Assembly (NCBI GenBank): GCA_963281255.1
Contig: OY725498.1
Span: 992,001-1,056,000, forward strand
Source of the DNA: Aphrocallistes beatrix
Lineage: Eukaryota > Porifera > Hexactinellida > Sceptrulophora > Aphrocallistidae
Direction of reading: 5' to 3'
DNA length: 64,000 nucleotides
Below are positions 35,101 to 56,272 of this stretch, piece by piece (position 1 is the stretch's first letter; the number at the start of each line of letters is the position of its first letter). The notes under the pieces are model-generated. The model searched no databases. It was not told the DNA's origin and saw nothing but the letters and a program-made list of their open reading frames with translations. The translations under genes were made by a program, and so were the position numbers.

Positions 35101-38100
35101 GTTTTGATCTTGAGGAGAAGGGAGATTTCTCAATCCTCTACAACGGAGAATATCAACCAAAGAACTTGTTCGATGCTTGCATTGATATTATGAAGAGTAG
35201 TCAAGATGAAGTCGGAATCGAAGCAGTTAGGTTATTCTTTCAAACAACAATTTCTGAAGTATCAAACAATTTACCTTCTAACATTGTCTCTCTCGAATCT
35301 ATATCAGATCAGACACTCTTCGATAAAAGTAAAGAATATTTTCTTTCTAAATTGAAAGAATCGCAATCTTCCTTGGAGAAGACTAAAGTAAATATAATGA
35401 TAAATGAATATATTCAGAAGAACAGTTCAGATCCAAGGAATGAGGGAATGAGATTAGAGGATGAACTCTATCCTCTTCAGTATGTACTAATGAAGCGTTT
35501 CAAAAGGCCTGAAGATTTGGAGTCTAAGACACTAGGCGAAATAGAAATAGGTCTCCATCCTTACAAATTGAATGAGTTAGAATCTCGGGTTCTTTCTGAA
35601 GTTTTTAAAATTAAGCCTCCAGTTGTTCAACAAATACGTACGAATTTAGGACACGGATACGATCTCTTGACTGAAACAGTGAAAGATAAGCTCGTGATAC
35701 ACTTAGAGTCTGAAGTTGCAGTTCCTCCTTATGGATTTCTGATTCCTGCTAACTGTCAATCCCATTTCGCATCTCTTGATGATATCAATTTCATTTGCGA
35801 TTTTTTTTGTAATTTGGATGAGTATAACGTAACCAGACTGGCAGATTTAGATCTTATGGATTATAAAGGTGACATAAGATTCAACCCCCTTCATGGTCAT
35901 AATATTTATGATCCTAATTCTACTTCAACATCGAGAAAAGTTGAAATAACTTTCGTTGTTGAAAAGGTCTTAAGTTCCATTAATATTAGACTTAATTCGT
36001 ACCAACTTGCGGACAATTTCCAAGATATTTTGAAGGATCTTCCCAAATCCTTTGACGAAAACGATGAAGCGAATGCCCAGAAATTTGACGACTTTTTTAC
36101 TCAACACGGGTGTTTTTTCTTGTCTGGAGTATCCATTGGAGGATATGTTTGTGGAAAGTTTCGTGTCAACTGTGAGCGATTAACTCCAGACTATTTTGAT
36201 TATCTGAGACAACGGCTTGTTAATATAATTCTCAATATTAAACATGGTGTTTCGAAAGAAGAATTCTTAAAACAAACAAAAGAAATAGAAAAAGAAATGT
36301 TAAATCCATTCTACGATCTCCTAAGTGCCGAGTTGGAATGGTTTGGTGGAGATCCCAAATATTATCAGAAAAGTTTCAAAGACTTATCTCAGGTGGAATG
36401 GCGTTCTTGGGAAAGATCTGTGAAGTACAGACCAGTTATCCTCCCCCATCATCTCTACCTGCAGCCGATATTCCATGTAACAAAGAGTCATGACAACGCT
36501 ATCCTGGAAGCATTCAAAGAGCACCTCCTTAAGTTAAAGAAACTGCATGAACAGAGTCCTCACAGATCTCTCAGGTTGGTAGAAAAGAGTCTGATGACAC
36601 AGAGGTCGGCCAACAGAGCTGTGTTTTTTCTCTACGGTTTGAGTGGTTCTGGTAAAACTGCTACCCTCATGCATCTATTTAATGGTGCAAAGGAACTGCA
36701 GATATCTCCAAATTATTCTGCAACTCGTAGTGTCATTGAGCATATTTATCCACTTAAAAGTGATCATTGGGATGTTAGAAACTTCCAAATTAGTTTCATT
36801 GATTGTCCAGGATTTGGAGATACTGATGGTCTGAATCAGGACGCAATTAATCTAGCTCTAATTGAAGAATTTGTGAAAATACATCCACAGTTAGGTACTC
36901 AGGAAATAAAATGGCTTGGGTATCCATACAATTACCTCGTATACCCTAATATAGTCATGATAGTGATAGACGTGACTGATGAGAGAATACTTGGTTACCA
37001 GTCAAAGGTTGCAAATATGTTTAAGATTCTTAAGAAAAAAAAACTTCACTTAATTAACCTGAAACATCCAAATGTTGTGATTGTGCTAACTCACGTTTGT
37101 CGTTATCCTAAAAAAACTTGGGCGACTAAACTCGCGTCTAAAGCATACTTTGTCCAACTCCTCGCACGAAGATTCTTGAAAATCGACGTACCTATAGTTT
37201 ATATTGAAAATGAACCTGAAGATTATGATCTTGAGATTAGTGGAGATTTCTCAATCCTCTACAACGGAGAATATCAACCAAAGAACTTGTTCGATGCTTG
37301 CATTGATATTATGAAGAATAGTCGAGATGAAGTCGGAATCGAAGCAGTTAGGTTGTTCTTTCAAACAACAATTTCTGAAGTTTCTAAAAGTTTACCTCCT
37401 AGCATTGTCTCTCCCGAATCTATTACTGATCTGGCACTCTTTGATAAAAGTAAAGAATTTTTTCTCTCTAAATTGACAGTTTTAAAGCCTGCCTATGAGA
37501 TTACAGAAGTAATTACAATGATAAATGAATATATTCAGAAGAACAGCTCAGATCGAAGGAATGAAGGAATGAAATTAATAGATGAGCTCTATCCTCTAAA
37601 GTTTGTATTGATGAAGCGTTTCAAAGCACCTGAAGATTTGGAGTCTAAGACACTCGGCGAAATAGAAATAACTCTCCATCCTTACAAATTGAATGAATTA
37701 GAATCTCGGGTTCTTTCTGAAGTTTTTAAAATTAAGCCTCCAGTTGTTCAACAAATACGTACGAATTTAGGACACGGATACGATCTCTTGACTGAAACAG
37801 TGAAAGATAAGCTCGTGATACACTTAGAGTCTGAAGTTACAGTTCCTCCTTATGGATTTCTGATTCCTGCTAACTGTCAATCCCATTTCGCATCTCTTGA
37901 TGATATCAATTTCATTTGCGATTTTTTTTGTAATTTGGATGAGTATAACGTAACCAGACTGGCAGATTTAGATCTTATGGATTATAAAGGTGACATAAGA
38001 TTCAACCCCCTTCATGGTCATAATATTTATGATCCTAATTCAACTTCAACATCGAGAAAAGTTGAAATAACTTTCGTTGTTGAAAAGGTCTTAAGTTCCA

Positions 38101-41100
38101 TTAATATTAGACTTAATTCGTACCAACTTGCGGACAATTTCCAAGATATTTTGAAGGATCTTCCCAAATCCTTTGACAAAAACGATGAAGCGAATGCTCA
38201 GAAATTTGACGACTTTTTTACTCAACACGGGTGTTTTTTCTTGTCTGGAGTATCCATTGGAGGATATGTTTGTGGAAAGTTTCGTGTCAACTGTGAGCGA
38301 TTAACTCCAGACTATTTTGATTATCTGAGACAACGGCTTGTTAATATAATTCTCAATATTAAATATGGTGTTTCGAAAGAAGAATTCTTAAAACAAACAA
38401 AAGAAATAGAAAAAGAAATGTTAAATCCATTCTACGATCTCCTAAGTGCCGAGTTGGAATGGTTTGGTGGAGATCCCAAATATTATCAGAAAACATTCAA
38501 AGACTTATCTCAGGTGGAATGGCGTTCTTGGGAAAGATCTGTGAATTCCAGACCAGTTATCCTCCCCCATCATCTCTGCCTGCAGCCGATATTCCATGTA
38601 ACAAAGAGTCATGACAACGCTATCCTGGAAGCATTCAAAGAGCACCTCCTTAAGTTAAAGAAACTGCATGAACAGAGTCCTCATAGATCTCTCAGGTTGG
38701 TAGAAAAGAGTCTGATGACACAGAGGTCGGCCAACAGAGCTGTGTTTTTTCTCTACGGTTTGAGTGGTTCTGGTAAAACTGCTACCCTCATGCATCTATT
38801 TAATGGTGCAAAGGAACTGCAGATATCTTCAAAGGAATCTGCAACTCGTAGTGTCATTGAGCATATTTATCCACTTAAAAGTGATCATTGGGGTATTAGC
38901 AACTTACAAATTAGTTTTGTTGATTGTCCAGGATTTGGAAATACTGATGGTCTGAATCAGGACGCAATTAATCTGGCTCTAATTGAAGAATTTATCAAAC
39001 AGCATCCGCAGTTAGGTGCTCAAGGAATAAAATGGCTTGGGTGTCCATACCACTACCCCGTATACCCTAATATAGTCATGATAGTGATAGACGTGAATGA
39101 CGAGAGAATGCTTGGTTACCAGTCAAGAGTTGCTAGCATGTTTAAGGTTCTGAAGAAAAAGAAACTCCACTTAATTGATCGGAAACGAGCAAATGTTGTT
39201 ATTGTGCTAACTCATGTTTGTTGTCTTCTCAAAAAGAATTGGGCAGCTCGGCTTGACTCTAAAGCCCACTTTGTCCAACTCATCGCACGGAAATTTTTAA
39301 AAATGCAAGTACCTGTTGTTTATATTGAAAATGATTTTGATAGTTTTGATCTTGAGGAGAAGGGAGATTTCTCAATCCTCTACAACGGAGAATATCAACC
39401 AAAGAACTTGTTCGATGCTTGCATTGATATTATGAAGAGTAGTCAAGATGAAGTCGGAATCGAAGCAGTTAGGTTATTCTTTCAAACAACAATTTCTGAA
39501 GTATCAAACAATTTACCTTCTAACATTGTCTCTCTCGAATCTATATCAGATCAGACACTCTTCGATAAAAGTAAAGAATATTTTCTTTCTAAATTGAAAG
39601 AATCGCAATCTTCCTTGGAGAAGACTAAAGTAAATATAATGATAAATGAATATATTCAGAAGAACAGTTCAGATCCAAGGAATGAGGGAATGAGATTAGA
39701 GGATGAACTCTATCCTCTTCAGTATGTACTAATGAAGCGTTTCAAAAGGCCTGAAGATTTGGAGTCTAAGACACTAGGCGAAATAGAAATAGGTCTCCAT
39801 CCTTACAAATTGAATGAGTTAGAATCTCGGGTTCTTTCTGAAGTTTTTAAAATTAAGCCTCCAGTTGTTCAACAAATACGTACGAATTTAGGACACGGAT
39901 ACGATCTCTTGACTGAAACAGTGAAAGATAAGCTCGTGATACACTTAGAGTCTGAAGTTGCAGTTCCTCCTTATGGATTTCTGATTCCTGCTAACTGTCA
40001 ATCCCATTTCGCATCTCTTGATGATATCAATTTCATTTGCGATTTTTTTTGTAATTTGGATGAGTATAACGTAACCAGACTGGCAGATTTAGATCTTATG
40101 GATTATAAAGGTGACATAAGATTCAACCCCCTTCATGGTCATAATATTTATGATCCTAATTCTACTTCAACATCGAGAAAAGTTGAAATAACTTTCGTTG
40201 TTGAAAAGGTCTTAAGTTCCATTAATATTAGACTTAATTCGTACCAACTTGCGGACAATTTCCAAGATATTTTGAAGGATCTTCCCAAATCCTTTGACGA
40301 AAACGATGAAGCGAATGCCCAGAAATTTGACGACTTTTTTACTCAACACGGGTGTTTTTTCTTGTCTGGAGTATCCATTGGAGGATATGTTTGTGGAAAG
40401 TTTCGTGTCAACTGTGAGCGATTAACTCCAGACTATTTTGATTATCTGAGACAACGGCTTGTTAATATAATTCTCAATATTAAACATGGTGTTTCGAAAG
40501 AAGAATTCTTAAAACAAACAAAAGAAATAGAAAAAGAAATGTTAAATCCATTCTACGATCTCCTAAGTGCCGAGTTGGAATGGTTTGGTGGAGATCCCAA
40601 ATATTATCAGAAAAGTTTCAAAGACTTATCTCAGGTGGAATGGCGTTCTTGGGAAAGATCTGTGAAGTACAGACCAGTTATCCTCCCCCATCATCTCTAC
40701 CTGCAGCCGATATTCCATGTAACAAAGAGTCATGACAACGCTATCCTGGAAGCATTCAAAGAGCACCTCCTTAAGTTAAAGAAACTGCATGAACAGAGTC
40801 CTCACAGATCTCTCAGGTTGGTAGAAAAGAGTCTGATGACACAGAGGTCGGCCAACAGAGCTGTGTTTTTTCTCTACGGTTTGAGTGGTTCTGGTAAAAC
40901 TGCTACCCTCATGCATCTATTTAATGGTGCAAAGGAACTGCAGATATCTCCAAATTATTCTGCAACTCGTAGTGTCATTGAGCATATTTATCCACTTAAA
41001 AGTGATCATTGGGATGTTAGAAACTTCCAAATTAGTTTCATTGATTGTCCAGGATTTGGAGATACTGATGGTCTGAATCAGGACGCAATTAATCTAGCTC

Positions 41101-43043
41101 TAATTGAAGAATTTGTGAAAATACATCCACAGTTAGGTACTCAGGAAATAAAATGGCTTGGGTATCCATACAATTACCTCGTATACCCTAATATAGTCAT
41201 GATAGTGATAGACGTGACTGATGAGAGAATACTTGGTTACCAGTCAAAGGTTGCAAATATGTTTAAGATTCTTAAGAAAAAAAAACTTCACTTAATTAAC
41301 CTGAAACATCCAAATGTTGTGATTGTGCTAACTCACGTTTGTCGTTATCCTAAAAAAACTTGGGCGACTAAACTCGCGTCTAAAGCATACTTTGTCCAAC
41401 TCCTCGCACGAAGATTCTTGAAAATCGACGTACCTATAGTTTATATTGAAAATGAACCTGAAGATTATGATCTTGAGATTAGTGGAGATTTCTCAATCCT
41501 CTACAACGGAGAATATCAACCAAAGAACTTGTTCGATGCTTGCATTGATATTATGAAGAATAGTCGAGATGAAGTCGGAATCGAAGCAGTTAGGTTGTTC
41601 TTTCAAACAACAATTTCTGAAGTTTCTAAAAGTTTACCTCCTAGCATTGTCTCTCCCGAATCTATTACTGATCTGGCACTCTTTGATAAAAGTAAAGAAT
41701 TTTTTCTCTCTAAATTGACAGTTTTAAAGCCTGCCTATGAGATTACAGAAGTAATTACAATGATAAATGAATATATTCAGAAGAACAGCTCAGATCGAAG
41801 GAATGAAGGAATGAAATTAATAGATGAGCTCTATCCTCTAAAGTTTGTATTGATGAAGCGTTTCAAAGCACCTGAAGATTTGGAGTCTAAGACACTCGGC
41901 GAAATAGAAATAACTCTCCATCCTTACAAATTGAATGAATTAGAATCTCGGGTTCTTTCTGAAGTTTTTAAAATTAAGCCTCCAGTTGTTCAACAAATAC
42001 GTACGAATTTAGGACACGGATACGATCTCTTGACTGAAACAGTGAAAGATAAGCTCGTGATACACTTAGAGTCTGAAGTTGCAGTTCCTCCTTATGGATT
42101 TCTGATTCCTGCTAACTGTCAATCCCATTTCGCATCTCTTGATGATATCAATTTCATTTGCGATTTTTTTTGTAATTTGGATGAGTATAACGTAACCAGA
42201 CTGGCAGATTTAGATCTTATGGATTATAAAGGTGACATAAGATTCAACCCCCTTCATGGTCATAATATTTATGATCCTAATTCAACTTCAACATCGAGAA
42301 AAGTTGAAATAACTTTCGTTGTTGAAAAGGTCTTAAGTTCCATTAATATTAGACTTAATTCGTACCAACTTGCGGACAATTTCCAAGATATTTTGAAGGA
42401 TCTTCCCAAATCCTTTGACAAAAACGATGAAGCGAATGCTCAGAAATTTGACGACTTTTTTACTCAACACGGGTGTTTTTTCTTGTCTGGAGTATCCATT
42501 GGAGGATATGTTTGTGGAAAGTTTCGTGTCAACTGTGAGCGATTAACTCCAGACTATTTTGATTATCTGAGACAACGGCTTGTTAATATAATTCTCAATA
42601 TTAAATATGGTGTTTCGAAAGAAGAATTCTTAAAACAAACAAAAGAAATAGAAAAAGAAATGTTAAATCCATTCTACGATCTCCTAAGTGCTGAGTTGGA
42701 ATGGTTTGGTGGAGATCCCAAATATTATCAGAAAAGTTTCGAAGACTTATCTCAGGTGGAATGGCGTTCTTGGGAAAGATCTGTGAAGTACAGACCAGTT
42801 ATCCTCCCCCATCATCTCTACCTGCAGCCGATATTCCATGTAACAAAGAGTCATGACAACGCTATCCTGGAAGCATTCAGAAAGCACCTCCTCAAATTAA
42901 AACCCTCCCAATCCAAGCCCAAACCTTTTACTAAAGCATGGTTTTCCAATAGACATACAAGGAAAGCAGAATCTGAGAGAGTTAAGACAGAAATAAAGAA
43001 TACGAGTAGAAGTCTTTTTTCGGATTCAAAACGGTCTTCTTAA
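32151..43043 (+). CDS. Gene D: five GTPase-MACPF modules in one frame (3630 residues)
   Basis: An open frame of 10.9 kb with no intron. Five modules start at 32301, 34422, 36543, 38664 and 40785, exactly 2,121 bp apart, of types a-b-c-b-c. Walker A motifs fall at residues 82, 789, 1496, 2203 and 2910, and every copy keeps GLSGSGKT, D-x-P-G and LTHVC as well as GHGYD, F-x6-HGCFF, SIGGYVCGKF and GGDP. The b GTPase has DCPGFGNTDG and CCLLKKNW; the c GTPase has SPNYSATRSV. The b-c pair is repeated (34422-38663 and 38664-42905), with one coding difference I noticed (SEVTVPPYG in module 3, SEVAVPPYG elsewhere). The tail is the Hog-less SLFSDSKRSS. A chain of five GTPase and five MACPF domains would be a linked multi-subunit protein. 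Module number could also be an assembly effect. Confidence 0.85.
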   Translation: MASGFTSSVYYVPDNAATDTIDQENTQDTSPNKLLDDSNLYSLANNPSDILHEQSPHRSLGLVEKSLMAQRSANRAVFFLYGLSGSGKTATLQHLFNGAKELQISSKESTTRCVMEHIYSLKSDHWGVSNLQISFIDSPGFGDTDSLNQDAINLALIEEFIKQHPQLGAQEIKWLGWSYHYTVYPNIVMIVIDVTDERMLGYKSRVASMFRILMKKKLKLIDRKHPNVVIVLTHVCSYPKKVWETELESKAYFVQLLARRFLKIQVPVVYIENKTNNFDLEEKGDFSILYNGEYQPKNLFDACIDIMKSSQDEVGIEAVRLFFQTTISEVSNNLPSNIVSLESISDQTLFDKSKEYFLSKLKESQSSLEKTKVNIMINEYIQKNSSDRRNERMKLEDELYPLKFVLMKRFKAPEDLESKTLGEIEITLHPYKFNELESRVLSEVFKIKPPVVQQIRTNLGHGYDLLTETVKDKLVIHLESEVAVPPYGFLIPANCQSHFASLDDINFICDFFCNLDEYNVTRLADLDLMDYKGDIRFNPLHGHNIYDPNSTSTSRKVEITFVVEKVLSSINIRLNSYQLADNFQDILKDLPKSFDKNDEANAQKFDDFFTQHGCFFLSGVSIGGYVCGKFRVNCERLTPDYFDYLRQRLVNIILNIKYGVSKEEFLKQTKEIEKEMLNPFYDLLSAELEWFGGDPKYYQKTFKDLSQVEWRSWERSVNSRPVILPHHLCLQPIFHVTKSHDNAILEAFKEHLLKLKKLHEQSPHRSLRLVEKSLMTQRSANRAVFFLYGLSGSGKTATLMHLFNGAKELQISSKESATRSVIEHIYPLKSDHWGISNLQISFVDCPGFGNTDGLNQDAINLALIEEFIKQHPQLGAQGIKWLGCPYHYPVYPNIVMIVIDVNDERMLGYQSRVASMFKVLKKKKLHLIDRKRANVVIVLTHVCCLLKKNWAARLDSKAHFVQLIARKFLKMQVPVVYIENDFDSFDLEEKGDFSILYNGEYQPKNLFDACIDIMKSSQDEVGIEAVRLFFQTTISEVSNNLPSNIVSLESISDQTLFDKSKEYFLSKLKESQSSLEKTKVNIMINEYIQKNSSDPRNEGMRLEDELYPLQYVLMKRFKRPEDLESKTLGEIEIGLHPYKLNELESRVLSEVFKIKPPVVQQIRTNLGHGYDLLTETVKDKLVIHLESEVAVPPYGFLIPANCQSHFASLDDINFICDFFCNLDEYNVTRLADLDLMDYKGDIRFNPLHGHNIYDPNSTSTSRKVEITFVVEKVLSSINIRLNSYQLADNFQDILKDLPKSFDENDEANAQKFDDFFTQHGCFFLSGVSIGGYVCGKFRVNCERLTPDYFDYLRQRLVNIILNIKHGVSKEEFLKQTKEIEKEMLNPFYDLLSAELEWFGGDPKYYQKSFKDLSQVEWRSWERSVKYRPVILPHHLYLQPIFHVTKSHDNAILEAFKEHLLKLKKLHEQSPHRSLRLVEKSLMTQRSANRAVFFLYGLSGSGKTATLMHLFNGAKELQISPNYSATRSVIEHIYPLKSDHWDVRNFQISFIDCPGFGDTDGLNQDAINLALIEEFVKIHPQLGTQEIKWLGYPYNYLVYPNIVMIVIDVTDERILGYQSKVANMFKILKKKKLHLINLKHPNVVIVLTHVCRYPKKTWATKLASKAYFVQLLARRFLKIDVPIVYIENEPEDYDLEISGDFSILYNGEYQPKNLFDACIDIMKNSRDEVGIEAVRLFFQTTISEVSKSLPPSIVSPESITDLALFDKSKEFFLSKLTVLKPAYEITEVITMINEYIQKNSSDRRNEGMKLIDELYPLKFVLMKRFKAPEDLESKTLGEIEITLHPYKLNELESRVLSEVFKIKPPVVQQIRTNLGHGYDLLTETVKDKLVIHLESEVTVPPYGFLIPANCQSHFASLDDINFICDFFCNLDEYNVTRLADLDLMDYKGDIRFNPLHGHNIYDPNSTSTSRKVEITFVVEKVLSSINIRLNSYQLADNFQDILKDLPKSFDKNDEANAQKFDDFFTQHGCFFLSGVSIGGYVCGKFRVNCERLTPDYFDYLRQRLVNIILNIKYGVSKEEFLKQTKEIEKEMLNPFYDLLSAELEWFGGDPKYYQKTFKDLSQVEWRSWERSVNSRPVILPHHLCLQPIFHVTKSHDNAILEAFKEHLLKLKKLHEQSPHRSLRLVEKSLMTQRSANRAVFFLYGLSGSGKTATLMHLFNGAKELQISSKESATRSVIEHIYPLKSDHWGISNLQISFVDCPGFGNTDGLNQDAINLALIEEFIKQHPQLGAQGIKWLGCPYHYPVYPNIVMIVIDVNDERMLGYQSRVASMFKVLKKKKLHLIDRKRANVVIVLTHVCCLLKKNWAARLDSKAHFVQLIARKFLKMQVPVVYIENDFDSFDLEEKGDFSILYNGEYQPKNLFDACIDIMKSSQDEVGIEAVRLFFQTTISEVSNNLPSNIVSLESISDQTLFDKSKEYFLSKLKESQSSLEKTKVNIMINEYIQKNSSDPRNEGMRLEDELYPLQYVLMKRFKRPEDLESKTLGEIEIGLHPYKLNELESRVLSEVFKIKPPVVQQIRTNLGHGYDLLTETVKDKLVIHLESEVAVPPYGFLIPANCQSHFASLDDINFICDFFCNLDEYNVTRLADLDLMDYKGDIRFNPLHGHNIYDPNSTSTSRKVEITFVVEKVLSSINIRLNSYQLADNFQDILKDLPKSFDENDEANAQKFDDFFTQHGCFFLSGVSIGGYVCGKFRVNCERLTPDYFDYLRQRLVNIILNIKHGVSKEEFLKQTKEIEKEMLNPFYDLLSAELEWFGGDPKYYQKSFKDLSQVEWRSWERSVKYRPVILPHHLYLQPIFHVTKSHDNAILEAFKEHLLKLKKLHEQSPHRSLRLVEKSLMTQRSANRAVFFLYGLSGSGKTATLMHLFNGAKELQISPNYSATRSVIEHIYPLKSDHWDVRNFQISFIDCPGFGDTDGLNQDAINLALIEEFVKIHPQLGTQEIKWLGYPYNYLVYPNIVMIVIDVTDERILGYQSKVANMFKILKKKKLHLINLKHPNVVIVLTHVCRYPKKTWATKLASKAYFVQLLARRFLKIDVPIVYIENEPEDYDLEISGDFSILYNGEYQPKNLFDACIDIMKNSRDEVGIEAVRLFFQTTISEVSKSLPPSIVSPESITDLALFDKSKEFFLSKLTVLKPAYEITEVITMINEYIQKNSSDRRNEGMKLIDELYPLKFVLMKRFKAPEDLESKTLGEIEITLHPYKLNELESRVLSEVFKIKPPVVQQIRTNLGHGYDLLTETVKDKLVIHLESEVAVPPYGFLIPANCQSHFASLDDINFICDFFCNLDEYNVTRLADLDLMDYKGDIRFNPLHGHNIYDPNSTSTSRKVEITFVVEKVLSSINIRLNSYQLADNFQDILKDLPKSFDKNDEANAQKFDDFFTQHGCFFLSGVSIGGYVCGKFRVNCERLTPDYFDYLRQRLVNIILNIKYGVSKEEFLKQTKEIEKEMLNPFYDLLSAELEWFGGDPKYYQKSFEDLSQVEWRSWERSVKYRPVILPHHLYLQPIFHVTKSHDNAILEAFRKHLLKLKPSQSKPKPFTKAWFSNRHTRKAESERVKTEIKNTSRSLFSDSKRSS
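34422..38663 (+). repeat. 4,242-bp b-c module pair, first copy in gene D
   Basis: Modules 2 and 3 of gene D. The next 4,242 bp repeat it almost perfectly, so a pair of modules, rather than a single one, was the last unit duplicated. Confidence 0.85.
38664..42905 (+). repeat. 4,242-bp b-c module pair, second copy in gene D
   Basis: Modules 4 and 5. Near the end module 5 switches to the KSFEDL and KYRPV version and then the shared tail, as in genes B and C. Confidence 0.83.
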
Positions 43044-44023: not shown

Positions 44024-47000
44024 ATGGCATCAGGATTTACAAGTTCCGTGTATTATGTTCCTGACAACGCAGCAACAGATACAATAGACCAAGAAAATAC
44101 CCAAGATACCAGCCCAAACAAACTTCTTGACGATTCTAACTTGTATTCCCTAGCCAATAATCCTTCTGATATTCTGCATGAACAGAGTCCTCACAGATCT
44201 CTCGGGTTGGTAGAAAAGAGTCTGATGGCACAGAGATCGGCTAACAGAGCTGTGTTTTTTCTCTACGGTTTGAGTGGTTCTGGTAAAACCGCTACCCTCC
44301 AGCATCTATTTAATGGTGCAAAGGAATTACAAATATCTTCGAAGGAATCTACTACTCGTTGTGTCATGGAGCATATTTACTCGCTTAAAAGTGATCATTG
44401 GGGTGTTAGCAACTTGCAAATTAGTTTCATAGATTCTCCAGGATTTGGAGATACTGACAGTCTGAATCAGGACGCAATTAATCTGGCTCTAATTGAAGAA
44501 TTTATCAAACAGCATCCGCAGTTAGGTGCTCAGGAAATAAAATGGCTTGGATGGTCATACCACTACACTGTATACCCTAATATAGTCATGATAGTGATAG
44601 ACGTGACTGACGAGAGAATGCTTGGTTACAAGTCAAGAGTTGCGAGCATGTTTAGAATTCTAATGAAAAAGAAACTCAAATTAATTGACCGGAAACATCC
44701 AAATGTTGTTATTGTACTGACTCACGTTTGTAGTTATCCGAAAAAAGTTTGGGAAACCGAGCTCGAGTCTAAAGCCTACTTTGTCCAACTCCTAGCACGG
44801 AGATTTTAAAAAATACAGGTACCTGTTGTTTATATTGAAAATAAAACTAATAATTTTGATCTTGAGGAGAAGGGAGATTTCTCAATCCTCTACAACGGAG
44901 AATATCAACCAAAGAACTTGTTCGATGCTTGCATTGATATTATGAAGAGTAGTCAAGATGAAGTCGGAATCGAAGCAGTTAGGTTATTCTTTCAAACAAC
45001 AATTTCTGAAGTATCAAACAATTTACCTTCTAACATTGTCTCTCTCGAATCTATATCAGATCAGACACTCTTCGATAAAAGTAAAGAATATTTTCTTTCT
45101 AAATTGAAAGAATCGCAATCTTCCTTGGAGAAGACTAAAGTAAATATAATGATAAATGAATATATTCAGAAGAACAGTTCAGATCGAAGGAATGAGAGAA
45201 TGAAATTAGAAGATGAGCTCTATCCTCTAAAGTTTGTATTGATGAAGCGTTTCAAAGCACCTGAAGATTTGGAGTCTAAGACACTCGGCGAAATAGAAAT
45301 AACTCTCCATCCTTACAAATTTAATGAATTAGAATCTCGGGTTCTTTCTGAAGTTTTTAAAATTAAGCCTCCAGTTGTTCAACAAATACGTACGAATTTA
45401 GGACACGGATACGATCTCTTGACTGAAACAGTGAAAGATAAGCTCGTGATACACTTAGAGTCTGAAGTTGCAGTTCCTCCTTATGGATTTCTGATTCCTG
45501 CTAACTGTCAATCCCATTTCGCATCTCTTGATGATATCAATTTCATTTGCGATTTTTTTTGTAATTTGGATGAGTATAACGTAACCAGACTGGCAGATTT
45601 AGATCTTATGGATTATAAAGGTGACATAAGATTCAACCCCCTTCATGGTCATAATATTTATGATCCTAATTCAACTTCAACATCGAGAAAAGTTGAAATA
45701 ACTTTCGTTGTTGAAAAGGTCTTAAGTTCCATTAATATTAGACTTAATTCGTACCAACTTGCGGACAATTTCCAAGATATTTTGAAGGATCTTCCCAAAT
45801 CCTTTGACAAAAACGATGAAGCGAATGCTCAGAAATTTGACGACTTTTTTACTCAACACGGGTGTTTTTTCTTGTCTGGAGTATCCATTGGAGGATATGT
45901 TTGTGGAAAGTTTCGTGTCAACTGTGAGCGATTAACTCCAGACTATTTTGATTATCTGAGACAACGGCTTGTTAATATAATTCTCAATATTAAATATGGT
46001 GTTTCGAAAGAAGAATTCTTAAAACAAACAAAAGAAATAGAAAAAGAAATGTTAAATCCATTCTACGATCTCCTAAGTGCCGAGTTGGAATGGTTTGGTG
46101 GAGATCCCAAATATTATCAGAAAACATTCAAAGACTTATCTCAGGTGGAATGGCGTTCTTGGGAAAGATCTGTGAATTCCAGACCAGTTATCCTCCCCCA
46201 TCATCTCTGCCTGCAGCCGATATTCCATGTAACAAAGAGTCATGACAACGCTATCCTGGAAGCATTCAAAGAGCACCTCCTTAAGTTAAAGAAACTGCAT
46301 GAACAGAGTCCTCATAGATCTCTCAGGTTGGTAGAAAAGAGTCTGATGACACAGAGGTCGGCCAACAGAGCTGTGTTTTTTCTCTACGGTTTGAGTGGTT
46401 CTGGTAAAACTGCTACCCTCATGCATCTATTTAATGGTGCAAAGGAACTGCAGATATCTTCAAAGGAATCTGCAACTCGTAGTGTCATTGAGCATATTTA
46501 TCCACTTAAAAGTGATCATTGGGGTATTAGCAACTTACAAATTAGTTTTGTTGATTGTCCAGGATTTGGAAATACTGATGGTCTGAATCAGGACGCAATT
46601 AATCTGGCTCTAATTGAAGAATTTATCAAACAGCATCCGCAGTTAGGTGCTCAAGGAATAAAATGGCTTGGGTGTCCATACCACTACCCCGTATACCCTA
46701 ATATAGTCATGATAGTGATAGACGTGAATGACGAGAGAATGCTTGGTTACCAGTCAAGAGTTGCTAGCATGTTTAAGGTTCTGAAGAAAAAGAAACTCCA
46801 CTTAATTGATCGGAAACGAGCAAATGTTGTTATTGTGCTAACTCATGTTTGTTGTCTTCTCAAAAAGAATTGGGCAGCTCGGCTTGACTCTAAAGCCCAC
46901 TTTGTCCAACTCATCGCACGGAAATTTTTAAAAATGCAAGTACCTGTTGTTTATATTGAAAATGATTTTGATAGTTTTGATCTTGAGGAGAAGGGAGATT

Positions 47001-49156
47001 TCTCAATCCTCTACAACGGAGAATATCAACCAAAGAACTTGTTCGATGCTTGCATTGATATTATGAAGAGTAGTCAAGATGAAGTCGGAATCGAAGCAGT
47101 TAGGTTATTCTTTCAAACAACAATTTCTGAAGTATCAAACAATTTACCTTCTAACATTGTCTCTCTCGAATCTATATCAGATCAGACACTCTTCGATAAA
47201 AGTAAAGAATATTTTCTTTCTAAATTGAAAGAATCGCAATCTTCCTTGGAGAAGACTAAAGTAAATATAATGATAAATGAATATATTCAGAAGAACAGTT
47301 CAGATCCAAGGAATGAGGGAATGAGATTAGAGGATGAACTCTATCCTCTTCAGTATGTACTAATGAAGCGTTTCAAAAGGCCTGAAGATTTGGAGTCTAA
47401 GACACTAGGCGAAATAGAAATAGGTCTCCATCCTTACAAATTGAATGAGTTAGAATCTCGGGTTCTTTCTGAAGTTTTTAAAATTAAGCCTCCAGTTGTT
47501 CAACAAATACGTACGAATTTAGGACACGGATACGATCTCTTGACTGAAACAGTGAAAGATAAGCTCGTGATACACTTAGAGTCTGAAGTTGCAGTTCCTC
47601 CTTATGGATTTCTGATTCCCGCTAACTGTGAATGCCAATTTACAGGTGTAAATAATTGTGACTTCAATTTCATTTGCGATTTTTTTTCTAATTTGGAGTA
47701 TAACGAAGCTAGACTGGCAGAGTTGGATCTTAAAGATTGTTCCGGTGTCATAAGATTCAAACCTCTTCAAGGTCATAATATTTTTGATCATAGTTCAACT
47801 TCAAATCCGAAAAAAGTTGAGATAACTTTCGCCTATCAAAAGGTTTTAGGTTACATTAGCATTGCACCTAATCGGTACCAACTTGCACGTAGGTTCCAAG
47901 ATCTTTTAAAAGATATTCCTGAATCTTTTGATGAAGACAATAAAGCGACAGTTCAGAAATTTGATGAACTTTTTGCTCAATACGGGTGTTTCTTCTTGTC
48001 TGAAGTATCCATCGGGGGCTATGTCTGCGGAAAGTTTAGTGTAAATCGTGAGCGGTTAACCCCAGACTATTGTAGTTACTTGAAATCATGCCTTGCTAAT
48101 ATAATTCTTAATATTAAACATGGTGTTTCGAAAGAAGAATTTTTACAACAAATAAATGAAATGGAAAAAGAAATGTTAAATCCATTCCACGATCTCCAAA
48201 GTGCCGAGTTGGAATGGTTTGGTGGAGATCCCAAATATTATCAGAAAACATTCAAAGACCTATCTCAAAGACAATGGCAATCTTGGGAAGAATCTGTGAA
48301 TTACAAACCAGTTATTCTCCCCCACAATATCGACCTGAAGCCGATATTCCATGTAACAAAGAGTCATGACAACGCTATCCAGGAAGCATTCAAAAAGCAC
48401 CTCCTTAAGTTAAAACCCTCCCAATCCAAGCCCAAACTTTTTACTAAAGCATGGTTTTCCAATAGACATACAAGGAAAGCAGAATCTGAGAGAGTTAAGA
48501 CAGAAATAAAGAATACAAGTAGAAGTTTTTGCTTTTCAGGAAATTCCACTGTGAGGCTAAGTACTGGACAAATCATCGCAATGGAGAATGTGCACATCGG
48601 AGATAAGGTTCTATCCGTGAACTCTGAAGGCAGGCCTTGCTTCTCCGCTGTCTACCTGTGGGGACATCTGGATCCAGACGCTGAGGCGGAATTCCTCCGT
48701 ATCCGTCACACACAGGGGGAGATTCGAGTGAGTGAGAACCATCTGGTGTTCGTTGTGAGGAGAGAGGAGGGAGGTGTCGGGGGAGCCATTCCTGCTGGTA
48801 GAGTGCGTGCAGGAGATCTGCTTGAGTACGTGAGTGTGGATGTAGTGGAGAGTGTTGAAGTGTTGTCAGTGAGTCGAGTTAATGAGATGGGTGTGTACTC
48901 TCCTTTCACTCTCACCAGTCGAATCGTGGTGGACGGAGTTGTGTGCAGTGTGTTTGCAGTGCCAGAGGTGACAGTAGGAGACACGAGCAAGGCTCATAAC
49001 AGAGGACACATCCTGATGGCTCCACTCAGATTCGGAGTCAAAACGGGTCTTCTTAAATGTGTGAGTTATCAGATGAGTGGGAAGATGCACATCTACTGCT
49101 CTGCACTAGAGAAGATGTACTACATTTTTCGACCTATCGAAACTCTTTTTCAGTAA
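44024..49156 (+). pseudogene. Gene E: two GTPase-MACPF modules plus Hog, one in-frame stop
   Basis: Two modules (from 44174, a type, and 46295, b type) followed by a full Hog domain. The first 3.5 kb read like gene D. From about 47,615 the DNA switches to the version in genes F and G (CQFTGVNNCDFNF onward), so the gene is a recombinant. The Hog domain begins at Cys codon 48530-48532 (CFSGNSTVRL), keeps SENHLVFV, GVYSPFTLTSR and VVDGVVCSVFAV, and ends with the GHILMAPLRF and MHIYCSALEKMYY region. The codon at 44807-44809 is TAA where genes C and D have TTA, which stops the protein at residue 261 inside the first GTPase domain. This is one T-to-A change at a T-run/A-run border, so a consensus error is possible. 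Everything after it is open, and re-initiation would still give a long protein. Confidence 0.85.
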
Positions 49157-49752: not shown

Positions 49753-52700
49753 ATGGCATCGGGATATACAAGTACTACCTTATATCCTGTTCCTACAGAT
49801 TCAGTAGATCAAAAAGATTCGCATAATATTAGTCCTAACGAACTTCTTGACAGTTCTGGCTTTTATTCCCTACCCAATTCTCCTTACAATATTCTGCATG
49901 AACGAAGACCTCACAGATCTCTTGGGTTGGTAGAAAAGAGCCTAATGGCACAGAGGTCTGCTAATAGAGCTGTGTTTTTTCTCTACGGTTTGAGTGGTTC
50001 TGGTAAAACCGCTACCCTCAAACATCTATTTAATGGTGCAAAGGAATTAGAAGTATCTTCAAAGGAATCTGCAACTCGTAGTGTCATTGAGCATATTTAC
50101 TCGCTTAAAAGTGATCATTGGGGTGTTAAGAACTTGCAGATTAGTTTTATTGATTCTCCAGGATTTGGAGATACTGATGGCCCAAATCAGGACGCAATTA
50201 ATCTGGCTCTAATTGAAGAATTTATCAAACAGCATCCGCAGTTAGGTGCTCAGGAAATAAAATGGTTTGGGTGTCCATACCACTACACTGTATACCCTAA
50301 TATAGTCATGATAGTGATAGACGTGAATGACGAGAGAATGCTTGGTTACAAGTCAAGAGTTGCTAGTATGTTTAAGATACTAAAGAAAAAGAAACTCCAC
50401 TTAATTGACCGGAAACGAGCAAATGTTGTGATTGTACTGACTCACGTTTGTAGCATTCCCAAAAAGAATTGGGCAGCTAGGCTTGACTCTAAAGTCTACT
50501 TTGTCCAACTCCTCGTACGGAGATTCTTGAAAATTCACGTACCTGTAGTTTATATTGAAAATGATTTTGATGGTTATGAACTTAAGATGAGTGGAGATTT
50601 CTCAATCCTCTATAACGGAGAATATCAACCTGAAAACTTGTTCAATGCCTGCATTGATATTATGAAGAGTAGTCGAGATGAAGTCGGAATCGAGGCAGTT
50701 AGGTTGTTCTTTCAAACAACAATTTCTGAAGTTTCCAACAGTTTACCTCCTAACATTGTCTCTCTCGAATCTATATCTGATCTGACACTCTTTAATAAAA
50801 GTAAAGAATTTTTTTTCTCTAAGTTGACAGTTTTAAAACCTGCCTATGAAGTTACAAAAGTAACTACAATGATATACGAATATGTTCAGAAGAACAGTTC
50901 AGATCCTAGGAGTGAGGGAATTAAATTAGAGGATGAGCTCTATCCTCTGAAGTTTGTATTGATGAAGCGTGGCTTTAAGAAACCTGAAGATTTGGAATCT
51001 AAGACACTAGCCGAAATAGAAATAACTCTCCATCCTTACAAATTCAATGAATTAGAATCTCGGGTTCTTTCTGAAGTTTTTAAACTTAAGCCTCCAGTTG
51101 TACAACAAATACCTACGAATTTAGGACACGGATACGATCTCTTGACTGAAACAGTTAAAGAAAAGTTCGTGATACACTGTGAGTCTGAGGTTTCAGTGCC
51201 TCCTTATGGATTTCTGATCCCCACTAACTGTGAATGCCAATTTACAGGTGTAAATAATTGTGATTTCAATTTTATTTGCACTTTTTTTTCTAATTTGGAT
51301 GAGTATAACGAAACTAGACTGGCAGAATTGGATCTTCAAGATTGTTCCGGTGTCATAAGATTCAAACCTCTTCAAGGTCATAATATTTTTGATCATAGTT
51401 CAACTTCAAATCCGAAAAAATTTGAAATAACTTTCGCCTATCAAAAGGTTTTAGGTTCCATTACACTTAATCGGTACCAACTTGCACGTAAGTTCCAAGA
51501 TCTTTTGAAAGATGTTCCTGAATATTTTGATGAAGGCAATAAAGCGACAGTTCAGAAATTTGATGAACTTTTTGCTCAATACGGGTGTTTCTTCTTGTCT
51601 GAAGTATCCATCGGGGGCTATGTTTTCGGAAAGTTTAGTGTAAATCGTGAGCGGTTAACCCCAGACTATTGTAGTTACTTGAAATCGCGGCTTGTTAATA
51701 TAATTCTCAATATTAAATATGGTGTTTCGAAAGAAGAATTTTTACAACAAACAGAAGAAATAGAAAAAGATATGTTAAATCCATTCCACGATCTCCTAAG
51801 TGCCGAGTTGGAATGGTTTGGTGGAGATCACAAATATTATCAGAACACATTGGAAGACTTATCTCAAAGGCAATGGCAATCTTGGGAAGAATCTGTGAAT
51901 TACAAACCAATTATCCTCCCCCACAATATCGACCTGAAGCCGATATTCCATGTAACAAAGAGTCATGACAACGCTATCCAGGAAGCATTCAGAAAGCACC
52001 TCCTTAAGTTAAAAACCCCCCAATCCAAGCCCAAACCTTTTACTAAAGCATGGTTTTCCAATATGCATACAAGGAAAGCAGAATCTGAGAGAGTTAAGAC
52101 AGATATAAAGAATACAAGTAGAAGTGTTTGCTTTTCAGGAAATTCCACTGTGAGGCTAAGTACTGGACAAATCATCGCGATGGAGAATGTGCACATCGGA
52201 GATAAGGTTCTATCCGTGAACTCTGAAGGCAGGCCTTGCTTCTCCGCTGTCTACCTGTGGGGACATCTGGATCCAGACGCTGAGACGGAATTCCTCCGTA
52301 TCCGTCACACACAGGGGGAGATTCGAGTGAGTGAGAACCATCTGGTGTTCGTTGTGAGGAGAGAGGAGGGAGGTGTCTGGGGAGCCATTCCTGCTGGTAG
52401 AGTGCGTGCAGGAGATCTGCTTGAGTATGTGAGTGTGGATGTAGTGGAGAGTGTTGAAGTGTTGTCAGTGAGTCGAGTTAAGGAGATGGGTGTGTACTCT
52501 CCTTTCACCCTCACCAGTCGAATCGTGGTGGACGGAGTTGTGTGCAGTGTGTTTGCAGTGCCAGAGGTGACAGTAGGAGACACGAGCAAGGCTCATAACA
52601 GAGGACACATCTTGATGGCTCCACTCAGATTCGGAGTCAAAACGGGTCTTCTCAAATGTGTCAGTTATCAGATGAGTGGGAAGATGCACATCTACTGCTC

Positions 52701-52755
52701 AGCACTAGAGAAGATGTACTACATTTTTCGACCTATCGAAACTCTTTTTCAGTAA
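49753..52755 (+). CDS. Gene F: complete single-module GTPase-MACPF-Hog protein (1000 residues)
   Basis: The cleanest member of the array. Walker A GLSGSGKT is at residues 79-86, DSPG at 134-137, LTHVC at 229-233. The MACPF domain starts near LGHGYD (457-462); its signature is F603-x6-Y610-G611-C-F-F followed by SEVSIGGYVFGKF, the same spacing as the family's Y-x6-[FY]-G-T-H-[FY] motif and following Gly-Gly. A GGDHKYY block (690) and a W-x-x-SV, P-I-I-L-P-H segment follow as in other MACPF proteins. The Hog domain runs from Cys793 to residue 1000 with Ser-Glu-Asn-His (His863), an Asp in HLDPD where Hedgehog has its sterol-transfer Asp, and a trailing GHILMAPLRF and MHIYCSALEKM region. No signal peptide. 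The true ATG is at 49753, in frame with three non-ATG codons before it. Confidence 0.92.
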   Translation: MASGYTSTTLYPVPTDSVDQKDSHNISPNELLDSSGFYSLPNSPYNILHERRPHRSLGLVEKSLMAQRSANRAVFFLYGLSGSGKTATLKHLFNGAKELEVSSKESATRSVIEHIYSLKSDHWGVKNLQISFIDSPGFGDTDGPNQDAINLALIEEFIKQHPQLGAQEIKWFGCPYHYTVYPNIVMIVIDVNDERMLGYKSRVASMFKILKKKKLHLIDRKRANVVIVLTHVCSIPKKNWAARLDSKVYFVQLLVRRFLKIHVPVVYIENDFDGYELKMSGDFSILYNGEYQPENLFNACIDIMKSSRDEVGIEAVRLFFQTTISEVSNSLPPNIVSLESISDLTLFNKSKEFFFSKLTVLKPAYEVTKVTTMIYEYVQKNSSDPRSEGIKLEDELYPLKFVLMKRGFKKPEDLESKTLAEIEITLHPYKFNELESRVLSEVFKLKPPVVQQIPTNLGHGYDLLTETVKEKFVIHCESEVSVPPYGFLIPTNCECQFTGVNNCDFNFICTFFSNLDEYNETRLAELDLQDCSGVIRFKPLQGHNIFDHSSTSNPKKFEITFAYQKVLGSITLNRYQLARKFQDLLKDVPEYFDEGNKATVQKFDELFAQYGCFFLSEVSIGGYVFGKFSVNRERLTPDYCSYLKSRLVNIILNIKYGVSKEEFLQQTEEIEKDMLNPFHDLLSAELEWFGGDHKYYQNTLEDLSQRQWQSWEESVNYKPIILPHNIDLKPIFHVTKSHDNAIQEAFRKHLLKLKTPQSKPKPFTKAWFSNMHTRKAESERVKTDIKNTSRSVCFSGNSTVRLSTGQIIAMENVHIGDKVLSVNSEGRPCFSAVYLWGHLDPDAETEFLRIRHTQGEIRVSENHLVFVVRREEGGVWGAIPAGRVRAGDLLEYVSVDVVESVEVLSVSRVKEMGVYSPFTLTSRIVVDGVVCSVFAVPEVTVGDTSKAHNRGHILMAPLRFGVKTGLLKCVSYQMSGKMHIYCSALEKMYYIFRPIETLFQ

Positions 52756-53351
52756 TTATTTGTGATGTCATATCCAAACTGGAGAGATTTACATTTTTTA
52801 TGTGTATTTTGAATTTTTATGTGTATTTTGAAACTTATCTAATTTAGTAGATTCTTATGTTACTATTAGCCATGTAAATATATTGTTTGTCATCTAGTTT
52901 CGTTCTACGAAGCTGTTTCATAGATATGCGGTATTTGCATTCTGCAATAACCTGATTATACATAAGATTAGTGTAGATTTGCTCATGCTCTAAATATCTT
53001 GTTTATTATTCGATTTTAATTTATTAAATACTGTTTCATATTATGTTGTGACATGCTGCTACACAATTGGTTTATGCTAAGAGATATTCCTGGTCCACCC
53101 CTCAACCCAGACGCTACGCAATCCCCTAGGATGGCTTTCCTTTGTTTTGGAATGTGAAGCCTTGAACTCGATGGGAATTTGTACATGAACTGTGTAAGAG
53201 AAGATTTTGACAATACTTTTGTTGTGTAATGTGATATTATGTAGGACATGTAGACGTATCTTAATTACAGAGTTATTACTAAAGCAGCGACTGTTATACT
53301 GTCATTATTTACTAATTTTATTATTCATTTGAATAGGTTTTTTTGTATTAT
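52756..53351. other. F-G spacer
   Basis: Carries the conserved block and the T-run upstream sequence, without the hAT-type element. One G is missing in the GATGGG stretch relative to the other copies. Confidence 0.75.
52961..53200 (+). promoter_or_regulatory. Conserved spacer block, copy 6 (F-G)
   Basis: Same block with the GTAAGAG donor-like end; the 27-codon frame is kept. Confidence 0.55.
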
Positions 53352-56272
53352 ATGGCGTCGGGATATACAAGTACTACTTTGTCTCCTGTTCCTAAAGATT
53401 CAGTAGATCAAAAAGATTCGCATAATATTAGTCCTAACGAACTTCTTGACAGTTCTGGCTTTTATTCCCTACCCAATTCTCTTTACAATATTCTGCATGA
53501 ACGAAGACCTCACAGAGCTCTCGTGTTGGTAGAAAAGAGCCTGCTAGCACAGAGATCAGCTAACAGAGCTGTGTTTTTTCTCTACGGCTTGAGTGGTTCT
53601 GGTAAAACCGCTACCCTCAAACATCTATTTAATGGTGCAAAGGAATTACATATATCTTCAAAGGAATCTGCAACTCGTAGTGTCATTGAGCATATTTACT
53701 CACTTAAAAGTGATCATTGGGGTGTTAGCAACTTGCAAATTAGTTTCATAGATTCTCCAGGATTTGAAGATACTGACGGCCCGAATCAGGACGCAATTAA
53801 TCTGGCTCTAATTGAAGAATTTATCAAACAGCACCCGCAGTTAGGTGCTCAGGAAATAAAATGGCTTGGGTGGCCACACCACTACACTGTATACCCTAAT
53901 ATAGTCATGATAGTGATAGACGTGAATGACGAGAGAATGCTTGGTTACAAGTCAAGAGTTGCGAGCATGTTTAAGGTTCTAAAGAACAAGAAACTCCACT
54001 TAATTGACCGGAAACGGCCAAATGTTGTTATTGTGCTGACTCATGTTTGTCGTTATCCAAAAAAAACTTGGGAAACTAAGCTCGCGTCTAAAGCCTACTT
54101 TGTCCAACTCCTCGTACGGAGATTCTTGAAAATCGACGTACCTATAGTTTATATTGAAAATGAACCTGATGATTATGATCTTGATATTAGTGGAGATTTC
54201 TCGATCCTCTACAACGGAGAATATCAACCAAAGAACTTATTCAGTGCTTGTATAGAAATTATGAAAAGTAGTCGAGATGAAGTCGGAATCGAAGCGGTTA
54301 GGTTGTTCTTTCAAACAACAATTTCTGAAGTATCAAACAGTTTACCTCCTAACATTGTCTCTCTCGAATCTATATCTGATCTGACACTCTTTGATAAAAG
54401 TAAAGAATATTTTCTCTCTAAGTTGAAAGATTCGAAATCTTCCTTAGAGAATACCAAAGTAGATACAATGATAGATGAATACATTCAGAAGAACAGTTCA
54501 GATACAAGGAATGAGGGAAAGAAATTAGAGGATGAGCTCTATCCTCTGAGGTTTATACTAATGAAGCGTGGTTTTAAGAAACCTGAAGATTTGGAGTCTA
54601 AGACACTAGGCGAAATAGAAATAAGTCTTCACCCTTACAAATTCAATGAACTAGAATCTCGGGTTCTTTCTGAAGTTTTTAAACTTAAGCCTCCAGTTGT
54701 TCAACAAATACCTACGAATTTAGGACACGGATACGATCTCTTGACCGAAACAGTGAAAGATAAGCTCGTGATACACTTAGAGTCTGAAGTTACAGTGCCT
54801 CCTTATGGATTTCTGATTCCTGCTAACTGTCAATACCAGTTTACAGGTGTAAATAATTGTAATTTCAATTTCATTTGCAATTTTTTTTCGAATTTGGATG
54901 AGTACAACAAAACTAGACTGGCAGAATTGGATCTTCAAGATTGTTCCGGTGTCATAAGATTAAAACCTCTTCAAGGTCATAATATTTTTGATCATAATTC
55001 AACTTACTCTCCGAAAAAAGTTGAAATAACTTTCGTCTATCAAAAGGTTTTAGGTTCCATTAGCGTTGCACCTAATTGGTATCAACTTGCACGTAAGTTC
55101 CAAGATCTTTTAAAAGATGTTCCTGAATCTTTTGATGAAAACAATAAAGCGACAGTTCAGAAATTTGAGAAACTTTTTGCTCATTACGGGTGTTTCTTCT
55201 TGTCTAAAGTATCCATCGGGGGATATGTTTTCGGAAAGTTTAGTGTAAATCGTGAGCGGTTAACCACAGACTATTGTCATTATTTGAAACAATGGCTTAT
55301 TAATATCATTTTCGCACAGAAAGATGGTGTCACCGAAGAGGGATTTTTACAACAAACAAAAGAAGTCAAGGAAGAGATATCAAATCCATTCCACGATCTC
55401 CAAAGTGCCGAGTTGGAATGGTTTGGTGGAGATCCCAAATATTATCAGAACACATTGGAAGACTTATCTCAAAGGCAATGGCAATCTTGGGAAGAATCTG
55501 TGAATTACAAACCAGTTATACTCCCCCATCATCTCTGTCTGATCCCGATATTCCGTGTAACAAAGAGTCATGACGACGCTATCCAGGAAGCATTCAAAAA
55601 GCACCTCTTCAAGTTAACCCCCCCCCCAATCCAAGCCCAAACCTTTTACTAAAGCATGGTTTTCCAATATGCATACAAGGAAAGCAGAATCTGAGAGAGT
55701 TAAGACAAATATAAAGGATACAAGTAGAAGTTTTTGCTTTTCAGGTAATTCCACTGTGAAGCTAAGTACTGGGCAAATCATCGCAATGGAGAATGTGCAC
55801 ATCGGTGATAAGGTTCTATCCGTGAACTTTCTCCGCTGTCTACCTGTGGGGACATCTGGATCCAGACGCTGAGACGGAATTCCTCCGTATCCGTCACACA
55901 CAGGGGGAGATTCGGGTGAGTGAGAACCATCTGGTGTTCGTTGTGAAGAGAGAGGAGGGAGGTGTCGGGGGAGCCTTTCCTGCTGGTAGAGTGTGTGCAG
56001 GAGATCTGCTTGAGTACGTGAGTGTGGATGTGGTGGAGAGTGTTGAAGTGTTGTCAGTGAGTCGAGTTAATGAGATGGGTGTGTACTCTCCTTTCACCCT
56101 CACCAGTCGAATCGTGGTGGACGGAGTTGTGTGCAGTGTGTTTGCAGTGCCAGAGGTGACAGTAGGAGACACGAGCAAGGCTCATAACAGAGGACACAAT
56201 ATGCACATCTACTGCTCTGCACTAGAGAAGATGTACTACATTTTTCGACCTATCGAAACTCTTTTTCAGTAA
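53352..56272 (+). pseudogene. Gene G: broken GTPase-MACPF-Hog gene
   Basis: The GTPase and MACPF parts are open (Walker A GLSGSGKT, LTHVC, GHGYD, F-x6-YGCFF with SIGGYVFGKF). G3 reads DSPGFED in place of DSPGFGD. The frame is lost at a run of ten C at 55618-55627, just before the Hog domain. The Hog start (CFSGNSTVKL) is present in another frame, then a 17-bp deletion near 55828 causes a second frameshift, and a 72-bp in-frame deletion near 56199 removes the MAPLRF segment of the trailing region. These separate lesions in the Hog half, against an intact first 769 codons, indicate that Hog function has been lost. A truncated GTPase-MACPF protein could still be made. It is the last member of the array. 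Confidence 0.88.

Follow-up and report, generated by a model that had tools for sequence, protein, structure and literature searches.

A glass sponge protein family that joins a GTPase, a MACPF domain and a Hedgehog-type Hog, with a Hint core homogenised between paralogues

How might a perforin-like protein be used if it carried the self-cleaving domain of Hedgehog in the same chain? Perforin-like proteins usually owe their targeting to lectin, C2 or similar domains. The question is raised by gene F, an uninterrupted reading frame from ATG to stop at 49753..52755 on the forward strand (frame open from 49744) of the window, by which we mean the whole 64,000-nucleotide stretch of Aphrocallistes beatrix DNA that was analysed. 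A sequence-only reading of this locus had proposed a GTPase, a MACPF domain and a Hog domain in this order, and had supposed that the Hog would leave a lipid on the end of the MACPF domain, under the control of the GTPase. Our analysis establishes the domains and their order, the conservation of this order across genomes, the conservation of the catalytic residues and the homogenisation of the Hint.

All three domains had been placed correctly in F, as judged from HMMs, from profile comparison with solved structures and from fold matches. The GTPase (residues 61-330, 49924..50733, on the forward strand like all features below unless stated) has an AIG1/Toc34/GIMAP fold, with the P-loop GLSGSGKT at 49987-50010; the fold match indicates a paraseptin G-domain of the Toc34 type. 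Unlike the GIMAP/Toc34 paraseptin GTPases, however, the family is barely seen by Pfam AIG1, which reached E<=0.01 in just 2 of the 20 members of our alignment A2 (G included, E left out); gene A scored E 0.1, under the cut-off, and F was unlisted. The MACPF/perforin domain (residues 452-768, 51097..52047) was found both as a fold and as a sequence profile over residues ~450-768, and the leading matches included the pore-formers perforin, perforin-2, C9 and pleurotolysin. Pfam matches to Sld5, DUF4302 and AAA were discounted, in our judgement, as repeat-inflated or P-loop matches.

The Hint core follows at residues 796-940 (52129..52563; Pfam Hint 4.4e-31) and could be aligned to 1at0 and 6tyy. 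When F alone was compared with the PDB, the top match was 6TYY, ahead of the wild-type Hedgehog structure 1AT0; 6TYY is the structure of the Hedgehog D303H mutant (PMC9163320, available sections). Beyond the core lies a tail resembling the sterol-recognition region (residues 941-1003, 52564..52752), identified by the Pfam Hint match, which reaches profile position 206 of 213, and by alignment of the family profile with Drosophila Hh (6td6), in which the tail is alignable up to the HWY motif. No match to the Hedge signalling domain was found in F, where the upstream part is the GTPase-MACPF. AF2 left the Hog unfolded, mostly at pLDDT <50 and at a mean of 30 when the Hog was modelled alone, and no geometry of Cys1, His46 and His is therefore claimed; Pfam finds both Hint and MACPF, and the folds of GTPase and MACPF are matched. 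The border between MACPF and Hint in F (52126-52139) resembles a splice acceptor, with a pyrimidine-rich run followed by CAG G, which is absent from A.

Searches for relatives yielded 21 different proteins, 20 of them with a Hog (including A, E and F of the window) and one, the ORF of gene G, without. The entire GTPase-MACPF-Hog order is present in 16 of the 20, ruling out a chance read-through as the origin of F, as had been argued before; the models of P0013, P0016, P0018 and P0021 begin downstream of the P-loop. Within A2, Pfam recognised the Hint in 19/20 and the MACPF in 19/20. The named relatives LOD99_16129 and LOD99_16130 belong to the glass sponge Oopsacas minuta, and P0018-P0021 form a deep lineage in the tree, here called X. 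Of 7997 candidates scored in the search with the N-terminal part, 12 proteins were listed, and nine relatives known from another search were missed, so that it gives no proof of absence outside glass sponges; the length limits of the relative searches exclude short Hedgehogs. For A. vastus, a large block of tandemly arrayed AIG1 genes, most of them with a single exon, has been described and set beside immune-gene expansions (PMC10282587); this block may differ from the present array. That paper contains none of the words hedgehog, MACPF, perforin or hedgling, and 'hint' in its available passages refers to gene-prediction hints; the genome paper on Oopsacas has none of the six words hedgehog, MACPF, perforin, Hint, GTPase and hedgling.

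Gene F is part of an array. Gene A (17664..20690; Hint 1.1e-32, MACPF 4.9e-9) is an anciently diverged GTPase-MACPF-Hog paralogue and, like F, an intact ORF; its own tail (20478..20687) has 34.9% identity to that of F. Gene B (21145..25660) comprises two GTPase-MACPF units without a Hint, its frame broken near 24,100 (24062-24165), and gene C (26641..31170) has two fused units. In gene D (32151..43043; 3630 aa) five such units are fused, with P-loops spaced every 2121 bases. The three genes share one common deletion, running from about the Cys1 codon (31143-31146 in C) into the tail, and hence end, without a Hog, near the site where F is expected to cleave itself. The existence of these copies implies that lipidation is dispensable in some members of the array. 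Gene E (44024..49156) has two units and a Hog, its frame broken near 44,800 (44800-44920, beside an A/T run) into ORFs at 44024-44809 and 44918-49156. In gene G (53343..56272) a GTPase-MACPF ORF extends to 55652 and is followed by a frame break (55652-55872) and a partly deleted Hog. The breaks in B, E and G may be real decay or sequencing errors.

Units 2 and 4 of D are identical, and unit 5 is the same as the second units of B and C; the D array may be very young, still recombining, or an assembly effect. D might conceivably encode a giant five-unit pore protein, with the same proviso that the fusion is possibly very young or an effect of assembly. Between D2 and D5 (34422-43017) the MACPF is nearly the same (dS 0.017) and the GTPases differ (dS 0.198), a pattern of shuffling between the GTPase and MACPF halves. 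Selection across the array is mostly purifying: dN/dS was 0.24-0.31 for the GTPase and 0.50-0.58 for the MACPF in 6 of 7 array pairs, and 0.49 and 0.26, respectively, in the pair D2-D5, where the MACPF is nearly homogenised. In the linker ahead of the Hog (residues 741-795) dN/dS exceeded 1 in 3/7 pairs, on just 8-14 changes each, a number too small to support a conclusion. Ten neighbouring ORFs were also scanned; two matched nothing and eight matched ordinary families (a KH protein, an ATG4-type protease, a PCI protein, an eIF5-mimic in two pieces, a histone deacetylase in two pieces and a dual-specificity phosphatase), the separate pieces being as expected of exons. By eye, 57700-57993 on the reverse strand and 62021-62338 on the forward strand are related, cysteine-bearing, exon-like ORFs (...CYADE...); perhaps, as a guess, they encode CAP-like secreted proteins.

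The layout of gene A had been taken as independent of that of F. This holds for the GTPase-MACPF part and fails for the Hint, which has been homogenised with that of F. Positions 20077..20476 in the Hint of A have 97.5% identity to F 52163-52562, and blastn of A against F returned no match between the two genes outside this tract. Identity at third codon positions is 0.93-0.97 in residues 811-930 and 0.23-0.53 outside the Hint core; the likeness drops at residue 940, where the Hint ends, and the left edge of the tract lies ~12-15 residues within the Hint. Across all seven A/F pairs compared, identity was 91.7-100% in the Hint core, 29.4-38.2% in the upstream GTPase-MACPF and 34.8-42.4% in the tail. 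Six of these pairs were taken as same-contig, P0004/P0014 lie on two contigs with one genome assumed, and two of the seven contain a truncated gene model. In every pair the block of likeness stops at the C-terminal edge of the Hint or <=3 residues away, and in pairs with fully identical Hints it starts at Cys1.

Trees agree with these comparisons. A single change of paralogue type suffices in the upstream tree as well as in the tail tree, and both recover F as one clade, at supports of 100/100 and 99/99, respectively; the tail tree is a short one, with a long-branch warning around A. In the Hint tree, paralogues pair by genome, with seven changes of type, and a forced F clade is worse by 371 log-likelihood units (AU p 2e-5) in a test that left three sets of identical rows unconstrained. 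The window's A, E and F are weakly resolved among themselves in this tree and stand apart from other genomes (98/100). The Hint alone is thus repeatedly homogenised in A/F pairs. On these grounds A and F are rejected as independent witnesses for the Hint. Purifying selection alone is likewise ruled out as the source of within-genome likeness, since Hints differ at up to 39% between genomes (among the compared pairs, X aside) and since the A-F synonymous distance is 0.14 in the whole Hint, and 0.04 after its residue 17, with the upstream part as a whole saturated. The Hint core has a GC3 of 0.50-0.52, and upstream the value is 0.32 (E, F) or 0.43 (A); in the tail it is 0.51-0.52 in E and F, like the Hint, and 0.27 in A. 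Recurrent gene conversion, perhaps with a GC bias, would fit this pattern. Lineage X differs in that its tail goes with the Hint: comparison with P0021 gave 95-96% identity for the Hint, 95-98% for the tail and 51-60% upstream (one genome assumed). In our reading the Hint is a generic, freely exchangeable catalyst, and a tail of the A/F type belongs with one particular effector or lipid; the GTPase-MACPF and the tail diverge, and the two may co-evolve.

The residues needed for Hedgehog-type cleavage are conserved. Cys1 and the His of the T/SxxH motif are present in 20/20 Hog proteins, the motif reading SENH in 16 and TDNH in four. In F the codons lie at 52129-52131 (Cys1; Cys796 here, Cys793 in ATG numbering), 52264-52266 (His46, Hedgehog Asp303) and 52330-52341 (Ser-x-x-His). 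Position 46, which in Hedgehog holds the general base Asp (D46/D303), is His in all 20. The residue at -1 to Cys1 is Val, Ser, Ile, Thr, Asn, Ala or Phe and never Gly, and the position of the motif-J Cys (C400) is Val throughout, with a Cys sitting two residues earlier. The Hedgehog-like sterol-recognition tail could be aligned in 16/20 and is weak and very diverged in the four lineage-X proteins. To our knowledge, a His46 general base is otherwise known only from a laboratory mutant of Hedgehog. In the available sections of PMC9163320, Drosophila Hedgehog D303H is described as keeping structure, pKa, activity and sterol transfer while broadening its choice of substrate, with activity up >200-fold on coprostanol and >300-fold on epicoprostanol. 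Hedgehog itself uses Gly(-1) (PMC13060885, available part). Among 14 complete models, none has a strongly hydrophobic N-terminus by a crude Kyte-Doolittle test (top nine-residue mean 1.86 within residues 1-45), suggesting that the precursor is probably cytosolic.

From these features we favour, at a probability of roughly 0.6, the reading that the GTPase-MACPF-Hog protein would serve as an immune effector of the cytosol, cleaving itself so that the GTPase-MACPF part is freed and possibly anchored through a sterol. By the chemistry of Hedgehog, as given in the available sections of PMC9163320 and PMC13060885, Cys796 would form a thioester by an N-S acyl shift, aided by His866 and Ser863, and His841 would activate the sterol hydroxyl in place of Hedgehog Asp303, so freeing the GTPase-MACPF part with a C-terminal sterol or, failing that, as the free acid left by water. 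The Toc34/GIMAP-fold GTPase might then collect freed units on a membrane, at which the MACPF would insert or scaffold as a cell-autonomous immune effector. Toc34/GIMAP-type GTPases pair in the GTP state, and several MACPF proteins form no pores. Tandem expansion, together with the repeated association of AIG1 genes with immunity, favours a role in defence. By analogy with Hedgehog, self-cleavage is likely, and transfer of a sterol ester onto the GTPase-MACPF part is slightly favoured; given the His base, the lack of Gly(-1), the displaced motif-J Cys and the lack of an evident signal peptide, we treat cholesterol on the MACPF end as a hypothesis. GTP-gated assembly and pore-type defence, proposed by family analogy alone, has somewhat less than an even chance, and the GTPase may exert the control supposed for it. 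That every part should hold together, giving a sterol-anchored, GTP-gated, self-freeing and self-lipidating pore protein with a His46 Hog whose Hint core is re-copied between paralogues in each lineage, is doubtful. If it is true, one shared Hint catalyst serves otherwise diverging GTPase-MACPF effectors.

Several other explanations bear on parts of this reading. The GTPase-MACPF might scaffold or remodel membranes instead of forming pores, acting for example on syncytial membranes or in vesicle traffic; glass sponges have syncytial tissue, the Toc34-type fold and the lack of an evident signal peptide in the crude test above would suit such a role, and copies with several fused units would fit poorly into a ring. 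The true pore-formers among the top MACPF matches speak against it, as does the faster evolution of the MACPF than of the GTPase in the six array pairs, as might fit defence, and we hold the scaffold role to be a tentative possibility. It is also conceivable, though unlikely, that the Hog cleaves without adding sterol, the thioester being hydrolysed or hit by another nucleophile, so that cleavage would be an activation switch, much as gasdermins are activated by cutting. The unusual residues at positions 46, -1 and motif J would agree with this, and, according to the available sections of PMC9163320, replacing D303 by A, N, R or E makes cleavage with DTT more efficient, and full cholesterol transfer is impossible in D303A. 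The replacement actually found in the family, however, is His, and D303H specifically retains sterol activity according to the same review; a Hedgehog-like recognition tail is, moreover, aligned in most members.

For the homogenised Hint, an alternative to ordinary, flank-limited gene conversion is a quasi-selfish cassette derived from an intein-like element. The edges of the alike block, which coincide so closely with the C-terminal end of the Hint in 7/7 pairs and with Cys1 where Hints are identical, and the raised GC3 of the core are what such a cassette would leave, but ordinary conversion stalls at diverged flanks and so accounts for the edges, and the left edge in the window falls inside the Hint. 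An intein with a homing endonuclease is ruled out, as the Hints, of 144-155 residues, have no such insert, and the broader cassette idea is improbable. Least probable by a wide measure is that the genes are decaying duplicates with the Hog as a relic: the broken frames of B, E and G, like the loss of the Hint from B, C and D, would point that way, but A and F are intact, and the catalytic Cys and His are retained in all Hog proteins across several genomes.

Compared with known systems, the immune-effector reading concerns a chain that is in part familiar. The sequence-only reading knew of no described protein with this order. This stands for the MACPF in between, as no description of MACPF joined to Hint was found in a full-text search for 'MACPF' with 'Hint domain' (subscription journals lying mostly outside it), the sole co-occurrence being a MACPF in a reference title, with the domains not joined, and none of the titles listed by broader literature searches names such a fusion. 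It needs amending for the pair of flanking domains. From the available parts of the respective papers, GmGIN1 of Glomus joins an AIG1-type GTPase to a Hint/Hog without a signal peptide (PMC2362128), C46 peptidases of Glomeromycotina are AIG1 plus Hint, those of Rhizophagus being linked to a putative mating response (PMC8778642), the coral Acropora has four AIG1-Hint transcripts (PMC3723955), and amphioxus has CARD+AIG1+HINT proteins (PMC12373286). An Aig1 gene also responds to encounter with another isolate (PMC7490403), in what we take to be the mating-response study cited in PMC8778642; the words hint, hog and hedgehog are absent from its main text. Like the present family, the AIG1-Hint proteins have an AIG1/IAN-type GTPase upstream of a Hog in one chain, with expansions or clusters in several lineages; unlike it, as far as the available descriptions go, they are reported with no MACPF between GTPase and Hint. 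The new element is thus the MACPF between an AIG1-type GTPase and a Hint, the AIG1-Hint combination itself being already known.

With Hedgehog the family shares Cys1, the His of the TxxH type, sequence homology of the Hint and a tail alignable through the HWY motif, whereas it differs in having His46 for Asp, never Gly at -1, Ser for Thr in 16/20, a displaced motif-J Cys, no evident signal peptide and no Hedge domain match. As a natural Asp46-to-His Hog, it makes the engineered base swap studiable in nature. With perforin, perforin-2/MPEG1 and C6-C9 it shares the MACPF fold and profile, whereas its MACPF shares a chain with a GTPase and a Hog and is apparently cytosolic; in this non-bilaterian animal, a self-attached sterol together with an immune-type GTPase would do the aiming. 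The contrast in A-F third positions inside and outside the Hint core makes the family, in addition, a clear example of concerted evolution confined to one domain. With AIG1-Hint proteins in fungi, coral and amphioxus, and now in glass sponges, the question why immune GTPases repeatedly gain the Hedgehog cleavage domain becomes testable.
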